From a virus, in IMG/VR virus record IMGVR_UViG_3300033993_002057, positions 1-33,466 of that record: a stretch of DNA of 33,466 bases. One strand, 5' to 3'. The position numbers and the translations under genes were made by a program. Position 1 is the stretch's first letter. Every line of letters starts with the position of its first letter. The notes under the pieces are model-generated. The model was not told the DNA's origin, did no database searches, and saw only the letters and a program-made list of their open reading frames with translations. Shown one piece after another: positions 15,006-27,493 of this stretch.

Positions 15006-16211
15006 TCATCGTTCCTGATGCACTCCGATGTAGACGGTGCCTTTCTTGGTGAGCGGCAGCACCTTGTCGCGCAGATCGATGTTGTGCATCCGCAGGCAGC
15101 CAAAGGTGGAATGCAGCCGTTGCTTGGGTGCCCATGCACCAGGCCATCCGCAGGCAGTGCCACCACCGTGGAGCATGATGCCGGCGCGGCCGTGCTTAGC
15201 CTCCTGGTTCTCCAGCTCGATCATGTCGAAGGAATACCAGCCGTAGGACCGCAGTGTTGCGTCAAATGCTGGCTTGTCTCCAACCCGCTCGTAGTCCTTG
15301 TAGATCTGGCCGATTTTGTAAAGGCCAGGCGGTGTGTCGCTGTTGCGTGTGCGCCAGTCGTTATCAGCACCCTGGCCACGTGCCAGGCATGGAGCCTTCC
15401 ACAGCAGCTTGCCCGTGTGGTCGTAGGCCTCAATCTGCTGATCACGGTCGTTGACCAACAGATAGCTGTCGCCAGGTTTGACGGGTGCTTTCTTGGCCGG
15501 GCCAACCATGCCGGATTCCTCTGTACCGCGAGGATCGAGGCCGCCGACAGGGGCAACCGGCGGGGCAGCCGGCGGGGCCTGCTGCAGCTGGCGGCCAACG
15601 AACAGCTCCACTTCGGCCTTGCGGCGGCGGGTCAGGCCAGCCAGCGGGGTGCCGCCTGATTTGTTCCAGCGCGGCAGTTCTGCGGCGACCACCACCGCCG
15701 GATCCTCTCCTGCCAGGATCCGTTTACGCAGGGTGGAATTCTGCATCGCCCCTACGCCGAGGTTGTATGTCCAGCTGAGCAACGCAGCGATACGGTTTGG
15801 TTGCCAGCTGCTTACCGCAGGAATGGCTCTCACCAAGGCTTCATGGAACCGCTTCAGGTCTGCATCAAGCTGCGCGTCAGCCTGCGCCTGGGTGATGCTC
15901 TGACCCTCTCTCACCACCTTGCCGCTGATGGTGGTCGAGCCCCAGCCGATGGCCCATGCGCCGGCATCGGGGTAAGCCTGGAGCCTGAGGCCCTCGAACT
16001 CCTTGATGATTTTTCGTGCTGAGGGCAGCCATGCCGGTTCAGGCACCGGCGCTGCGGGACTGCCCTGTGCCCTCCACAGCTCGGTGAACTCCCGGCGCTG
16101 CTCCGCGGTCAGCGATTCATCCAGCCGACCCAGTGCGGCCAGCTGATGCGGCGTCAGATGGCCCTGGCGTATGGCGTGCTGAGTGGCAGCGCGGACTGTG
16201 GCGAAAGTCAT
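15006..16211 (-). CDS. Two-domain endolysin: GH24 lysozyme plus L,D-transpeptidase-like domain
   Basis: The 401-aa protein has an N-terminal helical segment (1-50), a T4-lysozyme-type GH24 domain (about 60-205), a Pro/Ala-rich linker, and a C-terminal YkuD-like domain (about 245-400). GH24 shows catalytic E73 (EFEGLRLQAYPD) and D82; the usual Thr before IGxG is Ala (A87, WAIGWGST). The YkuD part keeps the signature H348 (MLHGGG) and HSTFGC with nucleophile C372. GH24 cuts the glycan strands. The second domain would normally form 3-3 peptide crosslinks; in an endolysin it may hydrolyse or exchange them, or merely bind peptidoglycan. The joint occurrence is directly seen; the second activity is inferred. 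No signal peptide is visible. Confidence 0.9.
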   Translation of the reverse strand: MTFATVRAATQHAIRQGHLTPHQLAALGRLDESLTAEQRREFTELWRAQGSPAAPVPEPAWLPSARKIIKEFEGLRLQAYPDAGAWAIGWGSTTISGKVVREGQSITQAQADAQLDADLKRFHEALVRAIPAVSSWQPNRIAALLSWTYNLGVGAMQNSTLRKRILAGEDPAVVVAAELPRWNKSGGTPLAGLTRRRKAEVELFVGRQLQQAPPAAPPVAPVGGLDPRGTEESGMVGPAKKAPVKPGDSYLLVNDRDQQIEAYDHTGKLLWKAPCLARGQGADNDWRTRNSDTPPGLYKIGQIYKDYERVGDKPAFDATLRSYGWYSFDMIELENQEAKHGRAGIMLHGGGTACGWPGAWAPKQRLHSTFGCLRMHNIDLRDKVLPLTKKGTVYIGVHQER

Positions 16212-16384
16212 TTCAGATCAGGCAAGCGATCACCAAGCAGGCGATCAAGGAAGTGCCACCCATGGCGGCCGGCCCAGAACGCGGCTGGTTCGAGGAAGGC
16301 CTTGAGGACAATCAGCCGCACGCCACCGGCCAGCAGCGAGCCGAGCACGATGTCGGTGATGATCCGGCCGTCGTCTGCGCTCAT
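16208..16384 (-). CDS. Small membrane protein, candidate holin component (58 aa)
   Basis: The frame starts MSADDGRIITDIVLGSLLAG and has one hydrophobic segment (about residues 8-30, ending VRLIVLKAFLEP), then an aromatic/basic tail (FWAGRHGWHFLDRLL). It overlaps both neighbours by four bases (ATGA at 16384-16381 and 16211-16208). A one-span membrane protein directly before an endolysin fits a holin or pinholin-like role, but no family motif was recognised. Confidence 0.65.
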   Translation of the reverse strand: MSADDGRIITDIVLGSLLAGGVRLIVLKAFLEPAAFWAGRHGWHFLDRLLGDRLPDLK

Positions 16385-16839
16385 CGCTGCTTCAGGAGGC
16401 GTTGCACGGTGGAACGGAAGACACCGAGCGCATCGGCGATCTCCTGCTGGGTGTAACCGCGGCCGTGCAGTTCCTGCGCCAGATCGGCTCGATCCACTGG
16501 TTCCTGATCCGGGTCGTCGATCAGCGCGACGGGTTCCGGCAGAGGTTCCGGCAGAGGTTCAGGCAGAGGTTCCGGCTGGTACTCCAGCTGGGGCTCAGGT
16601 TCATCTTGGCGGCGGCGCAGTGCTGGGTTGTAGGTCCACAGGCCACCGAAGGATCCAGCGATGGCGGCAACACCAGCCACCAGCGGCAGGGTGTTTTCCG
16701 AGATCACCTGATCGCAGGCGCCCTGCTCAGCGCGGAACTGCACGCAGTCCACGATGCGGTATCCCGAAACGAGCATGGCGGCGACACCAGCAACGACCGA
16801 ACCGCCGAAGGCTGCAGGGGCAAGCATGGGCTGGCGCAT
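16381..16839 (-). CDS. Two-TM membrane protein with cytoplasmic helix-turn-helix
   Basis: From the ATG at 16839 the product has 152 residues: two hydrophobic segments (about 5-30, APAAFGGSVVAGVAAML; and about 49-70, TLPLVAGVAAIAGSFGG) separated by a loop with two Cys (VDCV...GACDQ), a linker with repeated EPLP, and a C-terminal HTH (YTQQEIADALGVFRSTVQRL). A GTG at 16893 would add 18 residues, but it lies inside a terminator-like hairpin. It heads the lysis operon. The membrane part looks holin-like, while the HTH suggests DNA binding at the membrane, so lysis could be coupled to gene control. Both ideas are inferences. Confidence 0.7.
   Translation of the reverse strand: MRQPMLAPAAFGGSVVAGVAAMLVSGYRIVDCVQFRAEQGACDQVISENTLPLVAGVAAIAGSFGGLWTYNPALRRRQDEPEPQLEYQPEPLPEPLPEPLPEPVALIDDPDQEPVDRADLAQELHGRGYTQQEIADALGVFRSTVQRLLKQR
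16532..16576. repeat. 12-bp tandem repeat coding EPLP
   Basis: Nearly four copies of GGTTCCGGCAGA (plus strand; one copy differs by one base) encode the Pro-Glu linker between the membrane part and the HTH. The repeat keeps the reading frame at any copy number. Confidence 0.85.
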
Positions 16840-16882
16840 CACGGTGGTGGGCGAGCTGCTGTAGCTTTCCAGTGCGCCAATG

Positions 16883-16908
16883 AAAAACCCCACCGGACCA
16901 GGGCGGGG
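16883..16908 (-). terminator. Terminator-like hairpin in the leader of the lysis operon
   Basis: On the minus strand CCCCGCC-CTGGTCC-GGTGGGG is followed directly by TTTTT. The seven-bp stem has one G-T pair. It lies between the divergent start region (about 16934-16955) and the 16839 start codon, so it could act as an attenuator of the lysis operon. No minus-strand gene lies immediately upstream that it would otherwise terminate. Confidence 0.55.
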
Positions 16909-18441: not shown

Positions 18442-18472
18442 TGCTTGCAGAAATTGCATAGCCCTGGCGGTG

Positions 18473-18518
18473 TTGCAGAACGGCAACCGCAACGGTATGA
18501 TGTGGGGAGCCACCACCA
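18473..18518 (+). promoter_or_regulatory. Strong rightward promoter and conserved leader (recT operon)
   Basis: TTGCAG (18473-18478), 17 bases and TATGAT (18496-18501) form a near-consensus promoter. The spacer holds GCAACCGCAACGG, shared with the promoter at 31033-31061. The transcript start region GGGAGCCACCACCA (18505-18518) is identical to 10596-10609. The ATG of the RecT-like gene follows at 18526 without a clear Shine-Dalgarno sequence. Confidence 0.75.
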
Positions 18519-18525
18519 CAAAACC

Positions 18526-19455
18526 ATGGCATCGAACGCGCTGGCCCTTGCCGGGCCCGCCAGCACCAGCCTCAGCCTGCAGCTCAACGGCATCGAAGAC
18601 CTGCAACGCCTGGCGCGACTGTTTGCCGCCAGCGGCCTGTTCGGTCGTTCTGGCAACGCTGAGCAGCACATGGCCGAATGCGCCATCAAGATCCTGGCTG
18701 GCGCTGAGGCGGGCTTCGGCCCGTTCGCCAGTGCCGGCGGCGTGACCGTGATCAACGGCCGGCCGGGATTCGGCAGCAACCTGCTGGCGCAAGCGATCAA
18801 GCGGCACCCGCAGTATGACTACCGGGTGCTGGAAAAGACCGATCAGGCCTGCAAGATCAAGTTCATGGCCGGCCGGGAAGAACTGGGCATCGAGTGGTTC
18901 ACGATGGAGATGGCCAGGCGTGCCGGGCTGGTGAAGGCCTCCGGCCCGTGGGCGCAGTACCCCGAGGCGATGCTGTTCGCCCGGTGCCTGTCGGCCGGGA
19001 TGCGGACGCACTGCCCTGATGCCCTTGGTGGTGTCTCGGCGTACACGCCAGAGGAACTGGGCGCACAGGGAGAGATCGACGAGAACGGCGCTGTGGTTGC
19101 GGTGACCGTCACCGAGCAGCCGCAGGCACCCACCAGGGACCAGTTGCAGGCGCAGGCGATGCGTCGGCTGAAGGATCAGGGGATCACCAGCGACGGAATG
19201 CAGGCGATGCTGAACCAGCTCGGCGGCGAGGGCGCCAGGCTGGGGCAGCTCAGTGATGAAGTACTGGGCAAGCTGGCGCGTGTTGGCGCATCGGCTGAAA
19301 CGATCCAGCGGTGGAACGCTGATGGCGCACCGGCGGCGGCACCGGCGCCAGCTGCCGATGACTCTGTGCCGGCTGAGGTGTTCAGCGAGCCTGGATTCCC
19401 AGATCCCGACGAGCAGGACGACCCGGACGACCTGCCAGCAGCATGGGCGGCCTAA
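18526..19455 (+). CDS. RecT-like single-strand annealing protein
   Basis: The 309-aa protein should anneal complementary strands in phage recombination. The central region matches the RecT/phage annealase style: GPFASAGGVTVINGRPGFG, HPQYDYRVLEKTDQACKIKF, EWFTMEMARRAGLVK and YPEAMLFARCLSAGMRTHCP. The C-terminal 100 residues are a helical/acidic tail (DEQDDPDDLP). It is first in the long rightward operon and is followed by ssb, a usual pairing. The ATG at 18526 is preferred over 18445, which lies upstream of the promoter. A partner exonuclease could be the VRR-NUC protein at 16962-17408; that link is a guess. Confidence 0.82.
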   Translation: MASNALALAGPASTSLSLQLNGIEDLQRLARLFAASGLFGRSGNAEQHMAECAIKILAGAEAGFGPFASAGGVTVINGRPGFGSNLLAQAIKRHPQYDYRVLEKTDQACKIKFMAGREELGIEWFTMEMARRAGLVKASGPWAQYPEAMLFARCLSAGMRTHCPDALGGVSAYTPEELGAQGEIDENGAVVAVTVTEQPQAPTRDQLQAQAMRRLKDQGITSDGMQAMLNQLGGEGARLGQLSDEVLGKLARVGASAETIQRWNADGAPAAAPAPAADDSVPAEVFSEPGFPDPDEQDDPDDLPAAWAA

Positions 19456-26453: not shown

Positions 26454-26470
26454 ATGCACGGCCCGTGCAT
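26454..26470. promoter_or_regulatory. Palindrome upstream of integrase
   Basis: ATGCACG-GCC-CGTGCAT is a perfect 7-bp inverted repeat ending 42 bases before the integrase ATG. It could be an operator or a recombination core site. Confidence 0.55.
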
Positions 26471-26512
26471 CGTTGCATCGGCCACGGTTTCTGCGCGTCG
26501 TATTCCCCCCCC

Positions 26513-27493
26513 ATGGCATCGATCAACGTCCAGCGCGGCCGGCTTTACCTGCTGGCTCGGGTGCCCCGCCGTGACGGCAGCCCTGGCCTGGCGCAGCAGC
26601 GGATCGCCCTGAGGCTGGACGACACGCCTGTGAACCGTCGCGTTGCCGCCAAGCAGCTGCAGACCTTGGAGCGGCAGCTGGCCACCGACACGTTTGAGTG
26701 GGGGTACTGGACCGACCAAGGGGAGGGGATCACCTGGCGTGAGGCCATCGCCCGGCTGCATCGCGCCAGGGTGGTGCTGGGGCGCACGTCGGAGCGGACA
26801 TGGGAGATCAACTACATGGGCCGGCTGCGGCAGATCCCGCCGGCCAGCACGGTCACGACAAAGGCCATCGCCCAGGCGCTGCAGCGCTACGACCGCTCGA
26901 CCTGCTCATACAAGGAGCTGTGGTATCTGCTTAAGCAGCTGGCGCAGCTGGTCGGCGTGCCGTTTCCTGAGCTGCCAGTGCCGACGTATAGCAGGGCTGA
27001 GCTGGTGGCGGTGCCGACTGATGCGGAGATCATCCGCTGGGTTGAGGCAGCGCCGGATCCTGCGTGCTGGTATCTGGGGATGATGGCCACGTACGGTCTC
27101 AGGCCGCATGAGATCGAGGGTGCGGCGCTGATCGAGCGGGATTATCTGCAGGTGGCAGAGGCGAGCAAGACCGGATTCAGGACGGTGGTGCCGGTGCCCC
27201 GTGAGTGGGTGGAGCTGTTCAGGTTGAGAGATCGCCGGGTCAGGAGCAGCCCGACGGATGTGGCGAAGTGGCTCTCGAAGACCACCCACCAGCTGGGGCT
27301 GAGCTGGCGACCGTATGCGCTCAGGCATGCGTTCGCCGGCCGGCTGTGGCGGCAGGGTGGGTCGCGGTTGGATGTGTATACGGCGGCCCGGCTGATGGGT
27401 CATAGCCCCGGCCAGCACTCACGAACCTACCGGGCGCACATTCAGCCCCACCAGGTGGCGGAGGCGGCGGAGAGGGCGTTAGGGGGTGGGTGA
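26513..27493 (+). CDS. int: Tyrosine recombinase (phage integrase)
   Basis: The 326-aa protein would insert and excise the phage genome. Catalytic residues of the family are visible: R197 (TYGLRPHEIEG), K219 (EASKTGFR), R271 (YALRHAF; the box II His is Tyr268 here), H297 (LMGHSPGQH) and the nucleophile Y306 (SRTYRAH). The N-terminal 110 residues are the arm/core-binding part. The ATG at 26513 follows a C-rich leader without a good ribosome-binding site; an in-frame ATG at 26465 would overlap the palindrome. The gene lies inside the phage map, not at an end, so the window is either free phage DNA or a prophage whose att site is not near this gene. Confidence 0.92.
   Translation: MASINVQRGRLYLLARVPRRDGSPGLAQQRIALRLDDTPVNRRVAAKQLQTLERQLATDTFEWGYWTDQGEGITWREAIARLHRARVVLGRTSERTWEINYMGRLRQIPPASTVTTKAIAQALQRYDRSTCSYKELWYLLKQLAQLVGVPFPELPVPTYSRAELVAVPTDAEIIRWVEAAPDPACWYLGMMATYGLRPHEIEGAALIERDYLQVAEASKTGFRTVVPVPREWVELFRLRDRRVRSSPTDVAKWLSKTTHQLGLSWRPYALRHAFAGRLWRQGGSRLDVYTAARLMGHSPGQHSRTYRAHIQPHQVAEAAERALGGG

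Follow-up and report, generated by a model that had tools for sequence, protein, structure and literature searches.

Enzymes of the YkuD fold form a cysteine acyl-enzyme at the bond between meso-DAP and D-Ala of the peptidoglycan stem peptide, which is resolved by water in L,D-carboxypeptidases and by an amine in transpeptidases (PMC10653827, PMC9638812). Two residues of Csd6, Tyr132 and Trp158, are said to mark the L,D-carboxypeptidases (PMC10653827), and the antibacterial type VI effector Tlde1a provides a precedent for a wall-damaging enzyme of this fold (PMC9638812). YkuD is already known as a listed but rare domain of endolysins. PhaLP counts it among the enzymatic domains of phages, with 10 occurrences (PMC8310338), three homologues are reported from Yellowstone viromes (PMC5017753), and gut phages include one protein that combines GH25, choline-binding and YkuD domains (PMC13284279). 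A further relative, gp063 of Synechococcus phage S-CBS4 (phrog_3513), is annotated as the N-acetylmuramidase/endolysin of that phage, with the YkuD domain unmentioned. In the literature, which was covered in part, no paper testing a phage YkuD endolysin was found.

The gene considered here comes from a 33.5-kb virus record, and the window is that record in full (33,466 nt). It carries terminase, helicase/primase, RecT, thymidylate synthase and integrase-like genes, and the virus is one of picocyanobacteria. The integrase-like ORF (26465-27493, plus strand) and the RecT-like ORF (18445-19455, plus strand) point to a phage that is temperate or related to a temperate one. The endolysin ORF starts with ATG and lies on the minus strand, with two small ORFs upstream of it. 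The features are as follows.

16381-16893, minus strand: holin-like ORF of 170 aa; two hydrophobic stretches, and a helix-turn-helix at the C-terminus (ORF, homologues)
16208-16384, minus strand: hydrophobic ORF of 58 aa, overlapping the endolysin start codon (ORF and overlap, homologues)
15006-16211, minus strand: endolysin of 401 aa with helical N-terminus, GH24 domain, linker and YkuD domain (ORF, Pfam, phrog_7, AlphaFold2)
16038-16211, minus strand: N-terminal helical segment, aa 1-58, with a 'TPHQLAAL' motif (AlphaFold2 model and relatives)
15591-16031, minus strand: GH24 muramidase domain, aa ~61-207 (Pfam, fold match, dN/dS)
15993-15995, minus strand: Glu73 of the GH24 site
15966-15968, minus strand: Asp82 of the GH24 site
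15951-15953, minus strand: Ala87 of the GH24 site, in place of Thr
15516-15590, minus strand: Pro/Ala-rich linker, aa 208-232, closing with the junction motif 'LDPRGTEE' (low pLDDT)
15009-15515, minus strand: YkuD (L,D-transpeptidase-fold) domain, aa 233-401 (Pfam, model, fold match, conservation)
15168-15170, minus strand: His348 of the YkuD site
15096-15098, minus strand: Cys372 of the YkuD site
15090-15092, minus strand: Arg374 of the YkuD site

The full-length AlphaFold2 model has a mean pLDDT of 83. Helices are predicted in the N-terminal segment at aa 6-15, 21-33 and 36-48, and this segment is common to relatives with other catalytic domains (e.g. L014, L134 and L205). Residues 208-227 of the linker are disordered in the model (pLDDT <50), and variants of the type 'LDPRGSEE' stand just before the YkuD module in many relatives. 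Pfam finds both Phage_lysozyme (PF00959, aa 70-200, E 5.6e-35) and YkuD (PF03734, aa 249-381, E 2e-5), the latter at 25.7 bits with a curated cut-off of 23.4 bits. Each match exceeds its cut-off and each predicted fold has counterparts among solved structures, bearing out the sequence-only reading that a lysozyme and a YkuD domain are joined in one protein. NCBIfam returned GH24-type models only, far under cut-off, and among the matches listed for the full-length model against the PDB GH24 alone appears, with T4-lysozyme chains dominant.

The YkuD domain searched alone matches PF03734 at E 2.7e-6 (28.5 bits), and all 21 related modules searched match it at E <= 1 (best 1.1e-9), so the assignment is not due to chance. 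A sequence-only PDB search with the YkuD profile returned no YkuD relative, only chance Piwi matches, and a PHROGs search with the single window domain returned no family. Modelled alone, the domain reaches a pLDDT of 91.7 and a pTM of 0.88. A fold search with this model (VIA) gives Csd6 (Z 13.4 over 138 residues), Pgp2 (13.3 over 137), YkuD of B. subtilis (13.3 over 112), Bd1075 (12.7 over 131) and LdtMt2 (10.9 over 113), with other L,D-transpeptidases near 11. Csd6, Pgp2 and B. subtilis YkuD are tied, their Z scores differing by no more than 1; the alignments to Csd6 and Pgp2 extend over 136-138 residues, compared with about 112 for YkuD and LdtMt2. Foldseek ranks Bd1075 and Pgp2 at the top. 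There are 87 chains at Z >= 8, and among the matches listed all are YkuD-fold enzymes.

The catalytic motif of this domain, His348 followed by Thr369-Phe-Gly-Cys372-Leu-Arg374, fits the pattern of a His and then (S/T)-X-G-Cys-X-Arg. The gap between His and Thr is 20 residues, compared with 14-17 in classical YkuD enzymes (PMC9638812). Across 124 distinct modules, a set that spans down to about 50% identity, His348, Gly349, Trp356, Trp360, Gly371, Cys372 and Asn377 are invariant, and Thr369 and Arg374 are each kept in all but one. This is the pattern that an active enzyme shows, and it favours predicted activity. Many transpeptidases have an arginine at the position of Arg374, which the amidase DpaA lacks (PMC10653827).

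The GH24 half is assigned to its fold family by profile and by predicted fold (pLDDT about 90; Z 21 to 9kbs and 20.4 to 6et6). The motif of the family is Glu-X8-Asp/Cys-X5-Thr (PMC8228626), and the window has Glu73-X8-Asp82-X4-Ala87, in which both acids are kept and the Thr and the spacing are not. Glu73 and Asp82, like His348 and Cys372 of the other half, are thus found where the sequence-only reading had placed them, and the Thr-to-Ala change that it flagged as an oddity is real and is accompanied by a loop shorter by one residue. Among 60 aligned relatives the position holds Thr in 55 and Ala in five (the window, its identical copy L001, L203, L204 and L214). The shorter Asp-to-Thr loop occurs in the window and in L203 and L204; the loop of L214 has the normal length. 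The dN/dS of the GH24 domain between the window and L203 is 0.14, and across L203, L204 and L227, which share the change, it is 0.14-0.15. These ratios, together with the Ala of L214 at normal spacing, indicate that Ala87 is tolerated under selection. For the YkuD domains of the window and L203 the ratio is 0.24, with dS (about 1.6) near saturation. The values point to purifying selection on both domains, which in the GH24 half argues against decay and would be compatible with altered activity. A pseudogene or sequencing accident was rejected in view of this selection and of the identical 401-aa protein found on two other IMG/VR contigs, although these may be near-identical viruses.

The endolysin gene comes last in a cassette of translational overlaps, behind two small genes for membrane-protein-like products. 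The order on the one strand is the 170-aa ORF, the 58-aa ORF and the endolysin, linked by successive ATGA stop/start overlaps, an arrangement that supports the earlier description of a lysis operon. The 170-aa product is a putative holin. Its combination of holin-like hydrophobic stretches with a C-terminal helix-turn-helix is odd, and the helix-turn-helix matches are weak. Homologues of the 58-aa ORF adjoin the endolysins of L203 and L204 and GH73-YkuD genes in L009, L011 and L013, and homologues of the 170-aa ORF adjoin other YkuD endolysins in L018, L170, L203 and L204; in L170 the neighbour of the cassette small-protein homologue is a GH73-YkuD gene. Homology to lysis genes (phrog_7 endolysin, 2.8e-46) and the overlapping membrane-protein-like ORFs mark the protein as a probable phage endolysin.

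Relatives of the YkuD module are encoded on 461 stretches found in a profile-guided scan of IMG/VR. In genomes taken one per species there are 41 matches, all cyanobacterial and mostly from Cyanobium, Synechococcus and Vulcanococcus, and among annotated phages only three Synechococcus phages (S-CBS4, B23 and S-CRM01) carry the YkuD family above background. This range, cyanobacteria and their phages only in the collections searched, is compatible with the proposed adaptation to the cyanobacterial wall. The partner of the module is mostly a glycan-cutting domain, and may be GH24, glucosaminidase (GH73), a GH19-like domain, PF18013 lysozyme or none. Conversely, the C-terminal slot behind a closely related N-terminus and GH24 holds the present YkuD in 17 ORFs (two of which, L014 and L134, match through the N-terminus only), C39_2 in 15, M15_3 in 14, a divergent YkuD in four and little or nothing recognised in eight, with four ended by a contig edge; this census is approximate, since it was built from motif searches and Pfam on examples. 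The GH24 domains of L203 and L204 are close to that of the window (dS 0.43-0.46, dN/dS about 0.14) and their YkuD domains belong to another subclade than the window's (dS about 1.6), which implies a recombination point between the two domains. The YkuD of L014 is nearest to that of L203, yet is joined to a different lysozyme domain, and on the YkuD tree the phage GH24 label must have changed at least three times, given the well-supported branches.

Several variants of this arrangement were seen. In L118 (3104-4534), L111 (3113-4516), L120 and others, a chromosomal GH24-YkuD gene of Cyanobium/Aphanothece type overlaps an upstream membrane-protein gene. In L118 the neighbours of this gene are a katG-like peroxidase and a Na/Ca exchanger, phage genes were not seen in the vicinity, and the pair is perhaps a domesticated lysis cassette. 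In L082 (3207-4516) the 'endolysin' and 'hypothetical' genes g113 and g112 of S-CRM01 together make up a GH24-YkuD gene, each half in its own reading frame, a split that is either real or a sequencing error. The C-termini of L217, L218, L219 and L257 carry a second, divergent YkuD-like domain with a 'SPGTAGC' motif fused to GH24, and in L257 a PG_binding_1 domain lies between the two. Chromosomal YkuD modules with a short helical N-terminus and without a glycosidase occur in L085-L109 (e.g. L091, Synechococcus sp. WH 5701), some adjoining transposase or Fic genes. That a canonical L,D-transpeptidase was recently captured from the host is unlikely, as those found in picocyanobacteria bear little resemblance to the module: their N-termini look like signal peptides and their motif is of the SHGCVRM type.

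The protein is probably a modular bicatalytic cyanophage endolysin, in which the YkuD domain is predicted to cut stem peptides mainly by hydrolysis. Observed here are the fold, motif, conservation, cassette and module exchange; what we infer is the activity itself, the bond it is directed at, and the use of water and not an amine as acceptor. No obvious export signal is seen in the endolysin sequence, so the adjoining holin-like proteins would presumably open the membrane and let the endolysin through to the wall. The GH24 domain would then cleave glycan strands, while Cys372, assisted by His348, would attack the bond between meso-DAP and D-Ala, with hydrolysis as the main fate of the acyl-enzyme. 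The fit of the stems would decide whether tetrapeptides are trimmed or 4-3 cross-links opened, and the wall mesh would be opened by cutting a 4-3 cross-link at its donor L,D bond. Both sugar and peptide bonds would be broken, and host transpeptidases would be deprived of donors.

The sequence-only reading had left it between cutting, exchanging and just binding peptides. Cutting is preferred since the longest structural matches are hydrolases (L,D-carboxypeptidases), and the simplest reading of a module that trades its slot behind the same lysozyme with peptidases of families C39 and M15 is a further enzyme acting on stem peptides. Arg374, present in 123 of the 124 modules, leaves room for transfer to an amine acceptor. 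An active L,D-transpeptidase or exchange enzyme would move the tripeptide acyl to free D-amino acids or other amines, so that stems would be capped or re-linked during lysis and the host could not repair its wall. Tlde1a combines two activities, the trimming of tetrapeptides and the exchange of D-amino acids (PMC9638812). Its fold aligns with the model over 131 residues (Z 11.2), and the Tlde1 profile is weakly matched by four of 21 modules; against these stand the carboxypeptidase folds and the peptidase slot-mates, and exchange as the main role appears unlikely. A broader version, in which cyanophages widely lyse by acyl transfer, with YkuD shifting stem peptides onto free amines and so opening cross-links after lysozyme has loosened the glycan, is distinctly improbable; among the papers searched there was no description of wall breakage of this kind by an endolysin. 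Least probable is an inactive YkuD module that would hold GH24 on stem peptides. Like wall-binding domains, the module is common to endolysins with different catalytic domains, but a binder would have no need of catalytic positions invariant across all 124 modules, other peptidases occupy the same slot, and stand-alone versions exist without any glycosidase.

A separate doubt concerns the other half, as in this subclade GH24 might be weak or altered and YkuD the main lytic activity. The catalytic water of T4 lysozyme is held in place by Thr26, and a His at that position gives an altered mechanism (PMC2976769), so that the Ala and the shortened loop of the window could matter. However, both catalytic acids are kept, and the substitution is shared by relatives under purifying selection and occurs at normal spacing in L214; a weakened GH24 half is rather doubtful. 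The description of a crosslinking fold in an endolysin as counter-intuitive loses some of its force, since hydrolytic YkuD enzymes are known and YkuD stands in the PhaLP set of phage lytic domains.

A domain that endolysin lists treat as a curiosity appears here to be a common second enzyme in the lysis proteins of cyanophages, and an exchangeable one. The neglected question of whether a transpeptidase-fold enzyme can serve as a lytic peptidase is made testable, and the family yields named candidate enzymes for opening picocyanobacterial walls, as well as a case of a GH24 site without the usual Thr.

PhaLP and other endolysin domain lists treat YkuD as very rare, and they yielded neither a cyanophage family nor an exchange of slots nor any biochemistry. 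As far as the papers were searched, the new points are how large and modular the family is in cyanophages, its trading of places with C39 and M15, and its intact site. Like T4-family GH24 endolysins (6et6, 9kbs, R21), the window protein has the fold (Z about 20) and the Glu73/Asp82 pair; it differs in the Ala for Thr, the loop one residue shorter and the extra C-terminal enzyme domain. Tlde1a shares the YkuD fold, but is only 12% identical, is secreted by bacteria and has no glycosidase fusion. The L,D-carboxypeptidases Csd6, Pgp2 and Bd1075 are the best or joint-best folds over 131-138 residues, but at 16-19% identity, and the YkuD of the window shares a phage lysis gene with a lysozyme. S-CBS4 gp063 has a C-terminal YkuD module 66% identical to that of the window, whereas its N-terminal partner is of glucosaminidase type and not GH24.
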